From a virus: a stretch of DNA of 23,326 bases. The stretch spans positions 1 to 23,326 of the IMG/VR virus record IMGVR_UViG_3300042434_000776. One strand, 5' to 3'. Under the pieces are notes generated by a model, which saw only the letters and a list, made by a program, of their open reading frames with translations, searched no databases and was not told the DNA's origin. The translations under genes were made by a program, and so were the position numbers. Shown in pieces: positions 2 to 21,698 of this stretch; position 1 is the stretch's first letter; each line of letters begins with the position of its first letter.

Positions 2-130
2 GGTGATCCAAATAATAATCAATTAATTAACTTTAGAATTATATGTAATAATTGCGATGCTATACTTCCAACATTCAAAGGAAAAAATAGAGGTAAAGGA
101 AGAACTAATAGATACAATTGTTCTACCTAA
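2..130 (+). CDS. C-terminal end of an unidentified protein (partial)
   Basis: An open frame enters from the left edge and stops at TAA 128-130, giving 42 visible residues. The tail has a C-x2-C pair (ICNNC), then a basic Gly/Lys/Arg-rich stretch and a last Cys three residues from the end, which suggests the end of a small zinc-ribbon or nucleic-acid-binding module. Its last codons fall inside the first copy of the 52-nt repeated element. The start is outside the window and the function is unknown. Confidence 0.5.
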   Translation, partial: GDPNNNQLINFRIICNNCDAILPTFKGKNRGKGRTNRYNCST

Positions 131-170
131 TCCTATGGATTGGTTTTTTTGGTGGTAGTCAGCGAAAATT
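119..170 (+). repeat. 52-nt G-tract leader element, copy 1
   Basis: First and most diverged of three 52-nt copies. It begins TGTTCTACCTA, has four GG tracts in the middle, and ends GGTAGTCAGCGAAAATT. It overlaps the 3' end of the preceding open frame and is not directly followed by a gene start. Confidence 0.6.
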
Positions 171-186
171 AGCGGCACTATAGAAT

Positions 187-238
187 TGTCTCACCTTATC
201 ATTTAGGGTTGGTTTTTGTGGTTGTAGTCAGCGAGATT
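187..238 (+). repeat. 52-nt G-tract leader element, copy 2
   Basis: Second copy, running from TGTCTCACC to GTAGTCAGCGAGATT, with a G/T-rich middle (GGG, GG, GG). It ends exactly one base before the ATG at 239, so it acts as the leader of that gene. GUCUC near its 5' end could pair with GAGAU at its 3' end (five pairs including one G-U), which would bring the G tracts into a loop. Confidence 0.65.
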
Positions 239-427
239 ATGAGATACTTTAAAATTAATAAAAATGATATTAACGATATGAATTACTGGAATAGAATTAT
301 TAAAGATTTACATAGTAGTCTGATTAAACAACAAGATCTTGATAATAAGATACTAGTAGTCAAACTTCAAGAGATAACCAGCGACGATAACAACATGATT
401 CCTAAACTAGAATATAAAAACTCATAG
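239..427 (+). CDS. Small hypothetical protein, 62 aa
   Basis: Charged 62-residue protein rich in Asn, Asp, Lys and Ile, with no recognised domain. The ATG at 239 is chosen because it follows leader copy 2 directly; the upstream in-frame ATG at 209 lies inside the repeat and would add a Val-rich stretch encoded by the repeat itself. There is no good Shine-Dalgarno, only GCGAG at 231-235, so initiation may depend on the leader. Function unknown. Confidence 0.55.
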   Translation: MRYFKINKNDINDMNYWNRIIKDLHSSLIKQQDLDNKILVVKLQEITSDDNNMIPKLEYKNS

Positions 428-455
428 TTGTCTTTTGTTCGGCCACCCTTATAAT
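428..455 (+). promoter_or_regulatory. Possible sigma-70 promoter before leader copy 3
   Basis: TTGTCT (428-433), 16 nt, then a perfect TATAAT (450-455). The -10 box lies inside the palindrome CCCTTATAATAAGGG (446-460), which could be an operator or a small hairpin. The -35 match is only four of six. Confidence 0.35.
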
Positions 456-470
456 AAGGGAGACTATTAC

Positions 471-522
471 TGTCTCACCCTATGTAATGGATTTGGGCGG
501 GATGGGCGCAGTCAGCGAGATT
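471..522 (+). repeat. 52-nt G-tract leader element, copy 3
   Basis: Third copy, from TGTCTCACC to GCAGTCAGCGAGATT. The middle differs from copy 2 but keeps four G tracts (GG, GGG, GGG, GGG). It ends six bases before the ATG at 529. Conserved ends with a diverged but still G-tract-rich middle suggest that composition or structure is kept rather than sequence. Confidence 0.65.
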
Positions 523-528
523 TTTTAT

Positions 529-720
529 ATGACTAATAAAAAGAAAAAAACCAATATTAAATCTAAGAAAAAAAGTATCAAAAGAGAAAAGGCTTATGGT
601 GATCCTATGGTTGTAAGACCAGTTAGTGAATACTATAATTTAGAGACTGGGGAAATTTATCCAAAGATTTTCTTCAGAGAAAGTTTGTGGACAAGACTAA
701 AAAGATTTTTTGGTTTATGA
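529..720 (+). CDS. Small basic protein, 63 aa
   Basis: The N-terminal 24 residues are almost entirely Lys, Asn, Ser, Thr and Arg, followed by a mixed region and a basic aromatic end (TRLKRFFGL). This suggests nucleic-acid or membrane binding, but no family is recognised. The ATG at 529 is preferred over 487 because 487 lies inside leader copy 3. The stop TGA (718-720) overlaps the next ATG (717-719), so it is translationally coupled to the membrane proteins downstream. Confidence 0.6.
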   Translation: MTNKKKKTNIKSKKKSIKREKAYGDPMVVRPVSEYYNLETGEIYPKIFFRESLWTRLKRFFGL

Positions 721-15832: not shown

Positions 15833-16084
15833 ATGTTCGTTTGGACTGAAATAAGACGTTGGGCCAAGTCTCATGGCTACGAAACATTAAAAGACAAAGG
15901 CGACGAAGAAAACGGAGACAAAGTACAGTATTATTGGAGTAAAATTGACGATCCATCTTGTAGTGGCGTCAGTCCTAGTGTGAGTAAACTCGCTAGAGAT
16001 ATATATAATGATATTACTGATGGTGCTTGGATTGACCATCAAATAGCCCATAAGGAATCAGTAGATGAACGTAAAATTAGTTAG
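15833..16084 (+). CDS. Hypothetical phage protein, 83 aa
   Basis: Start ATG 15833 with AGGAG upstream; a longer TTG form from 15812 would include the ribosome site. Contains WTEIRRWAKSHGY, a polar loop, YYWSKIDD, SVSKLARDIYNDITDGAWID. The Y-x-W strand and the helix 'LARDIYNDIT' look like a conserved small phage protein of unknown role. Overlaps thyX by 20 nt. Confidence 0.65.
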   Translation: MFVWTEIRRWAKSHGYETLKDKGDEENGDKVQYYWSKIDDPSCSGVSPSVSKLARDIYNDITDGAWIDHQIAHKESVDERKIS

Positions 16085-16712
16085 TGTAACTCCAGACGCA
16101 GAAAAAACTATGGCTTATTGTGCCAGAGTGTCCAACCCAAACAACCAAGGTTCAGATAATTATGCTAAATTACTGAAATATTGCATTGACCATCAACATT
16201 GGAGCATATTTGAGATGGCATTTGTTACTCTAGAAATTAATACTACAAGAGGATTAGCAGCACAGATTCTCAGGCATCGTAGTTTTACTTTTCAAGAATT
16301 TTCTCAAAGATATGCTGATACAACTCTTTTAGCAGAAGATATTCCGTTGTTTGAGTTGCGTAGCCAAGATCATAAAAATAGACAAAATAGTATAGATGAT
16401 GTTTCTCCAGAAATTAAATCTAAATGGACTATGCAAGTTCGTGAGCATTTTGCTAAGGCTAAAGTGTTATACGATGGAATGATAGCAGATGGTATCGCTA
16501 AAGAATGTGCCAGATTTATTCTTCCTTTAGCAACTCCAACCCGTCTTTATATGAGCGGTAGTGTTCGTAGTTGGATTCATTATATTAATTTGCGTTCTGG
16601 TCATGGAACTCAAAAAGAACATATGAATATTGCTAATGAATGTAAGCAAATTTTTATTGAACAATTTCCTACTATTTCAGAATCTCTTGGGTGGAAAAAT
16701 GAAAACATTTAA
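16065..16712 (+). CDS. thyX: Flavin-dependent thymidylate synthase ThyX, 215 aa
   Basis: Makes dTMP from dUMP using FAD, NAD(P)H and methylene-tetrahydrofolate, supplying thymidine for phage DNA synthesis. The family signature RHR-x7-S-x-R is present at residues 70-82 (RHRSFTFQEFSQR). HWSIFE (45-50) corresponds to the conserved H-x-S...E region, and the C-terminal R-S-W-I-H-Y-I-N-L-R and HGTQKEH segments fit the nucleotide/flavin-binding end. Full length for the family. It starts within the previous gene and lies in the operon of P7, just before the repair gene. Confidence 0.97.
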   Translation: MNVKLVSVTPDAEKTMAYCARVSNPNNQGSDNYAKLLKYCIDHQHWSIFEMAFVTLEINTTRGLAAQILRHRSFTFQEFSQRYADTTLLAEDIPLFELRSQDHKNRQNSIDDVSPEIKSKWTMQVREHFAKAKVLYDGMIADGIAKECARFILPLATPTRLYMSGSVRSWIHYINLRSGHGTQKEHMNIANECKQIFIEQFPTISESLGWKNENI

Positions 16713-16881
16713 TATTACAGCACAGGTTTACAAGAATAATGATCGTTCAAAACAGAATCTATTAATTTGTGAATTTCATACTGGTTCATCATCTGATGAA
16801 GCATTATCTAATTTTAAACTACATTTTCCTGTTATAGAATATTCTCTTGTAAAAGTTCTCTCAGTTGAAGAAATTGTTTAA
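16699..16881 (+). CDS. Small hypothetical protein, 60 aa
   Basis: Starts in the last codons of thyX, after GGTGGAAAA. Strand-helix-strand layout (FNITAQVYKNNDRSKQNLLI, SSDEALSNFKLHF, YSLVKVLSVEEI). A single small alpha/beta domain; unrelated to thymidylate synthesis by sequence. Last gene before promoter P8. Confidence 0.55.
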   Translation: MKTFNITAQVYKNNDRSKQNLLICEFHTGSSSDEALSNFKLHFPVIEYSLVKVLSVEEIV

Positions 16882-16889
16882 GAACACGC

Positions 16890-16917
16890 TTGACTCTGGC
16901 CGATAATCTGATATACT
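16890..16917 (+). promoter_or_regulatory. Promoter P8 (GCCGAT type)
   Basis: TTGACT (16890-16895), 16 nt with GCCGATAA at its fourth base, TATACT (16912-16917). Drives the UV endonuclease gene; AAGGAG follows. Confidence 0.8.
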
Positions 16918-16934
16918 GCGACCAAGGAGATTTT

Positions 16935-17852
16935 ATGAATAGATTCGGCCTCTGTTGTATTTCGCTCAAACTCAAAGAGCAAGGTATTAGTCATCAGACA
17001 ATGACTTTTAAGCGTTTTAATAGTTTGCCAAGAGAAGAAGCACTAACTATTCTTGGCGAACGTATTCTTAATAATCTTGTTACTACTCGTAAGACTATTG
17101 AATTTTGTGGCGAGAATAATTATGTTTATCGTGTAAGTAGCGATATTTTTCCGCTCATTACATACAATGAAGCCAATGTTAATCTAGATGATTTGCCGAA
17201 CCATGATGATATTCAAGATGAGTTCGACAATATTGAACAGAGCATTAAGGATGCTGGTGTTCGCGTATCTTGCCATCCATCAGAGTTCAATGTTCTTGCT
17301 TCTACAAATCAAAAAGCAGTAGATAAAACTATTACTGAACTTAATTTTTACAGTAGTTTTTTTGACAGAATTGGTTTGCCTGCTAATTATGATTCCCCCA
17401 TGAATCTTCATGTGCATAATAAAAATGGAACACACTCTGAAATCATCGAACGCTTCATGCAAAACTTTAATCGCCTGGACGATAATTGTAAGGCTAGGCT
17501 TGTTATTGAAAATGATGACAAAATCAACTGCTGGAGTGTGAGAGAATTGATAACTCATTTTCATCCAAAAACTAATATTCCTATCACTTTCGACTATCTT
17601 CATCACAAGTGCCATCCAGATATGCTGGATGAAGAAACTGCTATTAAGGCTTGCCATGATACATGGCATGGACATAAGCCATTATTTCATTATAGCGAAA
17701 GCAGAGAAGGGAATAATCCTAGAGCGCACGCAGATTATGCTTATAATAAATTTCAGACGTATGGACTAGAGTTTGATGTTGATATGGAACTAAAAGCAAA
17801 ATGCCTCGCTATTGCTCAATATGAGTCATCGGTGCTATGTCAAGAAGTGTAA
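16935..17852 (+). CDS. uvsE: UV-damage endonuclease (UVDE/UvsE family), 305 aa
   Basis: Nicks DNA beside UV photoproducts as the first step of an alternative excision repair. The TIM-barrel family hallmarks are visible in order: RFGLCC at the N-terminus, VSCHPSEF (H114), NLHVHNK (H159), LVIENDD (E192), ITFDYLHH (D220, H223), FHYSESRE (H252) and DVDMELKAK (E285), which fit the metal-binding His, Glu and Asp set of the bacterial enzyme. Start at ATG 16935 behind AAGGAG, downstream of P8. Length is normal for the family. It overlaps the HNH gene by 16 nt. Confidence 0.95.
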   Translation: MNRFGLCCISLKLKEQGISHQTMTFKRFNSLPREEALTILGERILNNLVTTRKTIEFCGENNYVYRVSSDIFPLITYNEANVNLDDLPNHDDIQDEFDNIEQSIKDAGVRVSCHPSEFNVLASTNQKAVDKTITELNFYSSFFDRIGLPANYDSPMNLHVHNKNGTHSEIIERFMQNFNRLDDNCKARLVIENDDKINCWSVRELITHFHPKTNIPITFDYLHHKCHPDMLDEETAIKACHDTWHGHKPLFHYSESREGNNPRAHADYAYNKFQTYGLEFDVDMELKAKCLAIAQYESSVLCQEV

Positions 17853-20989: not shown

Positions 20990-21069
20990 GCTCCTGTGCC
21001 AGTGGTTCCTGGCAATTACTCTTATAAGGTAATCCGAAAGGGGACTTGGTTCGATTCCAAGCAGGAGTA
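20990..21069 (+). tRNA. tRNA with anticodon UAU (reads AUA), long variable arm
   Basis: Acceptor GCTCCTG pairs with CAGGAGT (one G-U); D-arm GCCA/TGGC with GG in its loop; anticodon stem TTACT/GGTAA, loop CTTATAA giving anticodon UAU; T-arm CTTGG-TTCGATT-CCAAG; discriminator A, CCA not encoded. The variable region is 12 nt with a CC-GAAA-GG mini-hairpin, as in class II tRNAs (Leu, Ser, bacterial Tyr), not in usual tRNA-Ile. The loop differs at one base from that of tRNA-Leu(UAA). Amino-acid identity is therefore open: Ile by codon, Leu by shape. Confidence 0.85.
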
Positions 21070-21339: not shown

Positions 21340-21693
21340 GGGGGCGTAATGGTATCGACTGGATATGGAAGATTGTATTAGCAAGTAGTGGTTAATCGAC
21401 CGGCCACTTTAAAAGTCGATTAAATGCTTTAACTGGCACAAATCAGTTAGCCCTTGCTGCTTAATTAAATAGCAGCAACAATCTTAGAAAGCGATGAAGG
21501 TAGCGTTCAAAAGATTGTCGTAAAATCCTTCGGCTGCTAGAATAGCCAACGGGTTCTAGCCTGAGATTAGTTGGTACGGAAAGATGAATGTTGTTTGTTC
21601 TTTAATCTTTCTTAAAATTTATGAATAAAATAAACTTGTAGAAAATGTAATTAGAAATATCACAGCACGGCAGTTCGACTCTGCCCGCCTCCA
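21340..21693 (+). ncRNA. ssrA: tmRNA (transfer-messenger RNA)
   Basis: Rescues stalled ribosomes and tags the unfinished protein for degradation. One-piece form: 5' GGGGGCG (21340-21346) pairs with CGCCTCC (21686-21692), discriminator A, CCA not encoded; T-arm GGCAG-TTCGACT-CTGCC. After GGTATCGACTGG comes pseudoknot 1 (AGTGG with CCACT; AATCGAC with GTCGATT). The tag frame starts at GCT 21426: ALTGTNQLALAA, stop TAA 21462-21464, in the loop of a GCTGC/GCAGC hairpin as in other tmRNAs. Length of about 354 nt is normal. The tag ends LAA, the usual protease signal. Confidence 0.95.
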
Positions 21694-21698
21694 CTTTT

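Follow-up and report, generated by a model that had tools for sequence, protein, structure and literature searches.

Three similar sequences of about fifty bases lie within the first 520 bases of a 23,326-base virus fragment from IMG/VR (the window, meaning the whole stretch of DNA analysed), which raises the question of what this element is and what it may do for the phages that carry it. A preliminary description had regarded it as a 52-nt leader with a variable G-tract core, possibly a G-quadruplex, and had considered translational control, recombination and the binding of a regulator by the RNA among its potential roles. The element belongs to a family, apparently not previously described, of about 50 bases in length, which sits between early genes and tRNA genes of large T4-like metagenomic phages, has a single orientation and contains two direct repeats whose identity is coupled.

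The element in the window and its relatives

All three copies were recovered by a family model built without the window (E 1e-11 to 4e-10; Table 1), confirming the leader elements first described, and a profile scan of the window revealed no copy beyond them. The conserved ends and the number of GG tracts (three in copy 2 and four in each of the others) were also as claimed. On the other hand, the extent had to be revised: the core comprises 49-50 nt instead of 52, although the two extra 3' bases are partly conserved as well, and the equal length holds for copies 2 and 3, which are 50-mers, but is partly coincidental for copy 1, a 49-nt variant with 59 instances in the collected set. The middles do differ between copies, but it had been missed that each middle consists of two direct repeats. 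A perfect palindrome, CCCTTATAATAAGGG, is located at positions 446-460, shortly 5' of copy 3.

Table 1. Positions of the element copies, their internal parts and the two adjoining ORFs in the window.
Feature	Position	Strand	Basis or remark
Element copy 1 (49-nt variant)	119-167	+	nhmmer E 1.9e-10, model excluding the window
Copy 1, repeat TGGTT	141-145	+	Sequence
Copy 1, repeat TGGTG	150-154	+	Sequence
Copy 1, invariant AGTCAG	157-162	+	Sequence
Element copy 2 (exact 50-mer)	187-236	+	E 1.4e-11, model excluding the window
Copy 2, repeats TGGTT	210-214, 219-223	+	Sequence
Copy 2, AGTCAG	226-231	+	Sequence
Element copy 3 (exact 50-mer)	471-520	+	E 3.7e-10, model excluding the window
Copy 3, repeats TGGGC	494-498, 503-507	+	Sequence
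Copy 3, AGTCAG	510-515	+	Sequence
Matched direct repeats, 9-nt offset, core of coupled variation (copy 3)	494-507	+	
ORF A, 62 aa, small conserved phage protein	239-427	+	Begins directly after copy 2
ORF B, 63 aa, lysine-rich	529-720	+	Starts 6 nt past the copy 3 end first given

The relationship of copies 2 and 3 to the ATGs at 239 and 529 was correctly described, and both starts lack an upstream GGAG-type site, which many other genes of the window possess. Homologues of ORF A were detected by tblastn in more than 20 loci, in most of which the element ends about 0-13 nt before the start; this arrangement is retained across 27-58% protein identity, and tandem element pairs, like copies 1 and 2, precede several of the homologues. 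ORF A could be assigned to no Pfam or PHROG family. A PHROG search with ORF B gave no convincing match, and related phages (such as G014) have lysine-rich ORFs at the corresponding position.

Relatives were gathered by pattern scans of IMG/VR followed by an iterated profile. The full profile gave 536 matches in the fetched loci, corresponding to 428 copies in 166 loci after duplicate removal, a total that is not an unbiased census since the loci were fetched by pattern; the same DNA reversed as a control gave zero matches. The element is not confined to the window but widespread in metagenomic phages, and it is enriched before start codons, 51 of 210 copies having an ATG (frame of at least 30 codons) 0-12 nt downstream. 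Rfam covariance models produced no match at E up to 1 or 5, and sequenced phages and plasmids (INPHARED and PLSDB) yielded weak matches only, none of them convincing. Among GTDB genomes, a first pattern had 0 matches and a second one matched three short MAG contigs. A site in Tunturiibacter phage Tunturi_5 (PP885688, 212531-212554), with a GGCCT...GGCCT repeat upstream of a gene beside tail assembly genes, resembles only the 5' half of the element (blastn E about 1) and is probably a chance match.

Several other features of the copy-bearing loci were observed. Three near-identical copies stand in tandem in L030 (1395-1572), repeating every 64 nt with a short spacer, the GC-rich ATGCGGGGCCGTTT. 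Short motifs show a genome-wide strand bias in these loci (GACTGA, 289 on the same strand vs. 123 on the opposite one; GTGACT, 333 vs. 141), which is possibly a second repeated signal. The window itself encodes a tmRNA (21340-21696; Rfam E 1.4e-48) with the predicted tag GTNQLALAA, close to a tRNA-Ile(TAT) gene (20990-21069), and a ThyX-type thymidylate synthase adjoining a UvdE-like UV endonuclease (16065-17852).

With regard to the phages, a related 238-kb record encodes rIIA, a DnaB-type helicase, a primase, a RecA-family protein and ribonucleotide reductase, and a sigma-like protein is present in 13 of 16 related records, a gene content in line with distant T4-like myoviruses. No multisubunit RNA polymerase was detected in the 16 records, nor was a T7-like RNA polymerase in a search without a positive control. 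The 238-kb record also contains a DUF1501 protein (L242:17866-19107, E 1.8e-103), a family known mainly from Planctomycetes and neighbours, which hints at a possible host.

Layout of the element and the coupled repeats

From 5' to 3', WGT and a weak hairpin are followed by two TGXXX units that enclose four free bases, and then by RYAGTCAGC. Numbered by the 50 columns of copies 2 and 3, the positions invariant among 56 diverse copies are G2, T3, A12, T23, A40, G41, T42, C43, A44 and G45. The weak inverted repeat occupies columns 9-15 and 19-25, repeat 1 is T24 G25 X26 X27 X28, and repeat 2 is T33 G34 X35 X36 X37, followed by R38, Y39 and A40; the last of the four free bases between the repeats is D32, where A, G or T is found and C is almost absent. 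Columns 26 and 35, 27 and 36, and 28 and 37 are identical in 81, 80 and 63% of weighted copies, compared with 55, 31 and 28% expected, and no such coupling is found in neighbouring columns. With offsets of 8-11 allowed, the mean identity of the five-base repeats is 4.11 vs. 3.14 (sd 0.04) after shuffling.

The repeats also change together. Among pairs of close copies (at most 6 differences), 45 change both bases at 27/36 and 53 only one, and the whole switches observed there (AA-CC, AA-GG, AA-TT, CC-GG and CC-TT) represent five of the six possible. At an orthologous locus, GGGATTTATGGGAAC is found in L012 and L013 and GGAATTTATGGAAAC in L023; after the same tRNA-Ser, GCT/GCT is present in L082 and GTT/GTT in L083. 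Across a group of 30 elements that share their flanks, the hairpin hardly varies, whereas the inner block is swapped as a unit, each time with the repeats largely matching. Divergent relatives follow the same scheme with other letters, such as TGACA ATAA TGACA GTCAGC (L082 and L191), TGTTC AGGA TGTTC (L151) and TGCTG ACGG TGCTG (L039). In some copies the repeats match at offset 10 (GGAAGCTGTGGGAATAG in L044; also L004), and it is therefore not the codon phase that is maintained. L082, L171, L191, L158 and L224-L226 contain a shorter sister element, AGCCGATCCTATCGGCTGACAATAATGACAGTCAGCC, whose hairpin is strong and whose TGACA repeats stand at offset 9.

The exchange of the inner block at orthologous sites would be expected if the element were a recombination cassette boundary of the PeSL (promoter-early stem-loop) type, offering short homology for the shuffling of early genes, promoters and tRNAs between phages. 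Flank linkage is 0.33 and 0.55 at the element vs. 0.48-0.85 at 700 nt distance, and L013 resembles a deletion between two tandem copies that are retained in L023. However, comparable linkage is found 300 nt upstream, suggesting that the whole region is shuffled, and recombination alone explains neither the repeat identity nor the conservation before gene A; we consider this explanation quite unlikely.

Other roles for the matched repeats were considered and rejected. A coding sequence or leader peptide does not agree with the occurrence of stops, which are not avoided, or with the lack of an open frame; ribosome bypass does not agree with these features either, as no frame is open into the matched codons and offset 10 occurs. 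Codon synonymy of the triplets is only suggestive, the few GAN-box mismatches being mostly non-synonymous. Anticodon or tRNA matching was dismissed, as the inner block differs at the same tRNA-Glu site. The proposed G-quadruplex was also abandoned: four GG tracts occur in only 25% of 219 diverse copies vs. 14% of column-shuffled ones, and GG is swapped for GC, AC or TT while repeat identity persists.

Structural signals are modest. The hairpin arms co-vary, in that arms shuffled between copies have lower complementarity, with a variable register; RNAalifold on the 56 diverse copies gave no consensus structure, and a fixed hairpin scored barely above shuffles. No partner for the repeats was found within the element, in its flanks or elsewhere in the locus; complements of the repeats were absent within 250 nt, and the rest of the locus contained none of the inner block. 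Complementarity was not in excess for an outer stem joining positions 1-12 to 38-56 at the two ends of the element, nor for stems with the flanks, and none of the structures or pairings tested accounts for the coupled change of the repeats. Y39 varies among pyrimidines only and R38 among purines (95%), a pattern compatible with a predicted pairing of the invariant G2 and T3 with Y39 and R38.

Two bases of the same strand that are equal cannot form a pair, and no protein would be expected to require that arbitrary triplets be equal; we therefore infer that the repeats would either meet a single complementary strand one after the other or be homogenised by a copying process. On one reading, the element might carry a self-referring signal, in which the repeats are largely free in sequence but must be equal, because a nascent or other complementary strand leaves one and re-pairs with the other beside the hairpin in a template-realignment or hopping step; we consider this improbable. 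Another reading, to which we give a still slimmer chance, assumes that a polymerase copying the element stalls at the hairpin, after which it slips from repeat 1 back to repeat 2, the repeats being equal since one complementary strand re-pairs with both, as a telomerase-like template function or as a mutational side effect. Such slippage would agree with the range of whole switches at 27/36, the excess of first-C/second-T mismatches over the reverse at these columns, the matches at offset 10, which need no codon phase, and the repeat identity, strongest beside the hairpin and fading outward (81, 80 and 63%, then none). Yet no RVT_1 reverse transcriptase was detected in the 16 related records, and extension after slippage would make column 23 drift towards column 32, a drift that is not seen.

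Orientation, placement and a possible role in the transcript

A single orientation was found in 24 of 24 records searched whole, with 0 matches to the reversed pattern and no mixed-orientation locus, and the copies in a record run in the same direction as the genes. On the 5' side, 51 of 296 copies lie 3' of a same-strand tRNA, many of them 0-6 nt from its 3' end, and 4 precede a tRNA. The stop codon of an upstream ORF, often TAA, falls at element positions 10-12 in 21 of 146 cases, and a canonical terminator is found directly 5' of 8 of 219 copies (about 1.5 expected) and 3' of 1. The hairpin has no following T-run, TTTT occurring within 10 nt after the element in only 6% of copies. On the 3' side, a sigma-70 promoter is present within 75 nt downstream of 43% of the copies not adjacent to an ATG, 14% of the ATG-adjacent ones and 9% of the background. 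Some copies have a terminator or tRNA on one side and an ATG on the other with no further promoter between, and others lie directly upstream of a sigma-70 -35 box. One copy in G014 begins about 15 nt past the expected transcript start and ends just before an ATG. In the 238-kb record, all seven copies fall within one 14-kb early region, which together with its surroundings contains ten of the twelve tRNAs and is rich in small ORFs and in TTGACA promoters. Several early promoters of G014 (G014:C1:140001-160000; L241) share an extended TTGACAA-(C)CGATAA before the -10 box.

The translational control considered earlier agrees with the enrichment before starts, but a purely translational element is doubtful because most copies are not ATG-adjacent, lying instead after tRNA genes or ORFs, and because 43% of these non-adjacent copies are followed by a promoter. 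A regulator-binding RNA, also among the roles first considered, may apply, and so, with the low probability given above, may a recombination site. Alternatively, the element might be a DNA operator or auxiliary promoter: a 50-bp site bound by a phage or host protein, with conserved TG and AGTCAG contacts, inverted arms and direct half-sites, that regulates the adjacent early promoter, or a site where transcription starts at Y39-A40 and yields mRNAs with short leaders. This would suit the copies that separate a terminator or tRNA from an ATG with no other promoter, those just upstream of a -35 box, the usual YR start-site pattern of Y39/A40, and the sigma-like proteins of the related records. 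We nevertheless regard it as unlikely, given that some copies precede -35 boxes and others follow probable start sites, all in the same orientation, that no -10 is conserved, and that a protein is not expected to read arbitrary triplet identity differing within one genome.

Our preferred explanation, put forward tentatively and with rather less than even confidence, is that in the tRNA-rich early region of large T4-like phages the element acts in cis as a boundary at the transcript level. The element, comprising a 5' WGU, the weak hairpin, two matched TGXXX repeats and the invariant AGUCAGC tail, would mark where two successive transcription units adjoin. Most probably it would work within the transcript, where it would form either a 3' trailer behind a tRNA or ORF or a 5' leader ahead of the following gene, and its binding or cleavage may allow two RNAs to be separated, stabilised or translated independently. 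We infer that RNA is the active form and that the element controls or processes the transcript; a trailer or leader is preferred because it best fits the orientation and both placements. Counted in favour of a boundary element are the one orientation, the tRNAs, stops and terminators 5' and ATGs or promoters 3', the conservation before gene A, the co-varying hairpin arms and the clustering in the 14-kb early region. Counted against it are the failure of RNAalifold to find a consensus and the weakness of the fixed hairpin relative to shuffles; in addition, copies that precede a promoter would not be part of the mRNA made from it, and the repeat identity is not an RNA pairing. The DNA-based explanations stay alive because structural covariation is weak.

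Relation to known systems and significance

Translational bypassing in T4 gene 60 involves about 50 nt, a hairpin and two matching triplets. The process has been described (PMC11194080), and the element resembles it in all three respects, but it lies outside reading frames, does not avoid stops and allows a spacing of 10. Theta ribozymes, which are HDV-like and located at the 3' ends of phage tRNA genes, have been proposed to process trailers (PMC10879173). The present element is likewise a small phage element at tRNA gene 3' ends; unlike theta ribozymes, it has no Rfam match, and its 5' strand and post-hairpin segment do not pair in the HDV manner, a window scan of segment pairs having shown no excess complementarity for such a P1 helix. 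Furthermore, most copies are not beside tRNAs, and the phages are environmental rather than from the gut. Theta ribozymes set a precedent for where the element lies but not for how it folds.

The PeSLs of T4-like phages, as outlined in PMC4503421, which cites Arbiol 2010 and Comeau 2014, are likewise multi-copy intergenic modules in regions rich in small ORFs. They adjoin early promoters and are associated with shuffled genes, two features for which the element gives mixed results: a promoter follows 43% of the copies away from an ATG but only 14% of the ATG-adjacent ones, and flank linkage is lower at the element but also 300 nt upstream. Compared with PeSLs as outlined there, the element has no terminator stem-loop of its own, canonical terminators lying 5' of it, many copies precede an ATG with no promoter, and the invariant AGTCAGC tail and identity-coupled repeats are distinguishing features.

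Taken as a family, the element is a strongly conserved, multi-copy sequence, absent from Rfam, that marks the early region in one group of large phages from the environment. Should it be an RNA boundary signal, it would reveal the wiring of tRNAs and small early genes in these phages. A functional rule of repeat identity would point to copying or re-pairing by a mechanism that, to our knowledge, is known in no phage leader, and a self-referring signal, if true, would add a cis element of a new kind to phage gene expression or replication. Either way, the element provides a handle for annotating the early regions of metagenomic phages.
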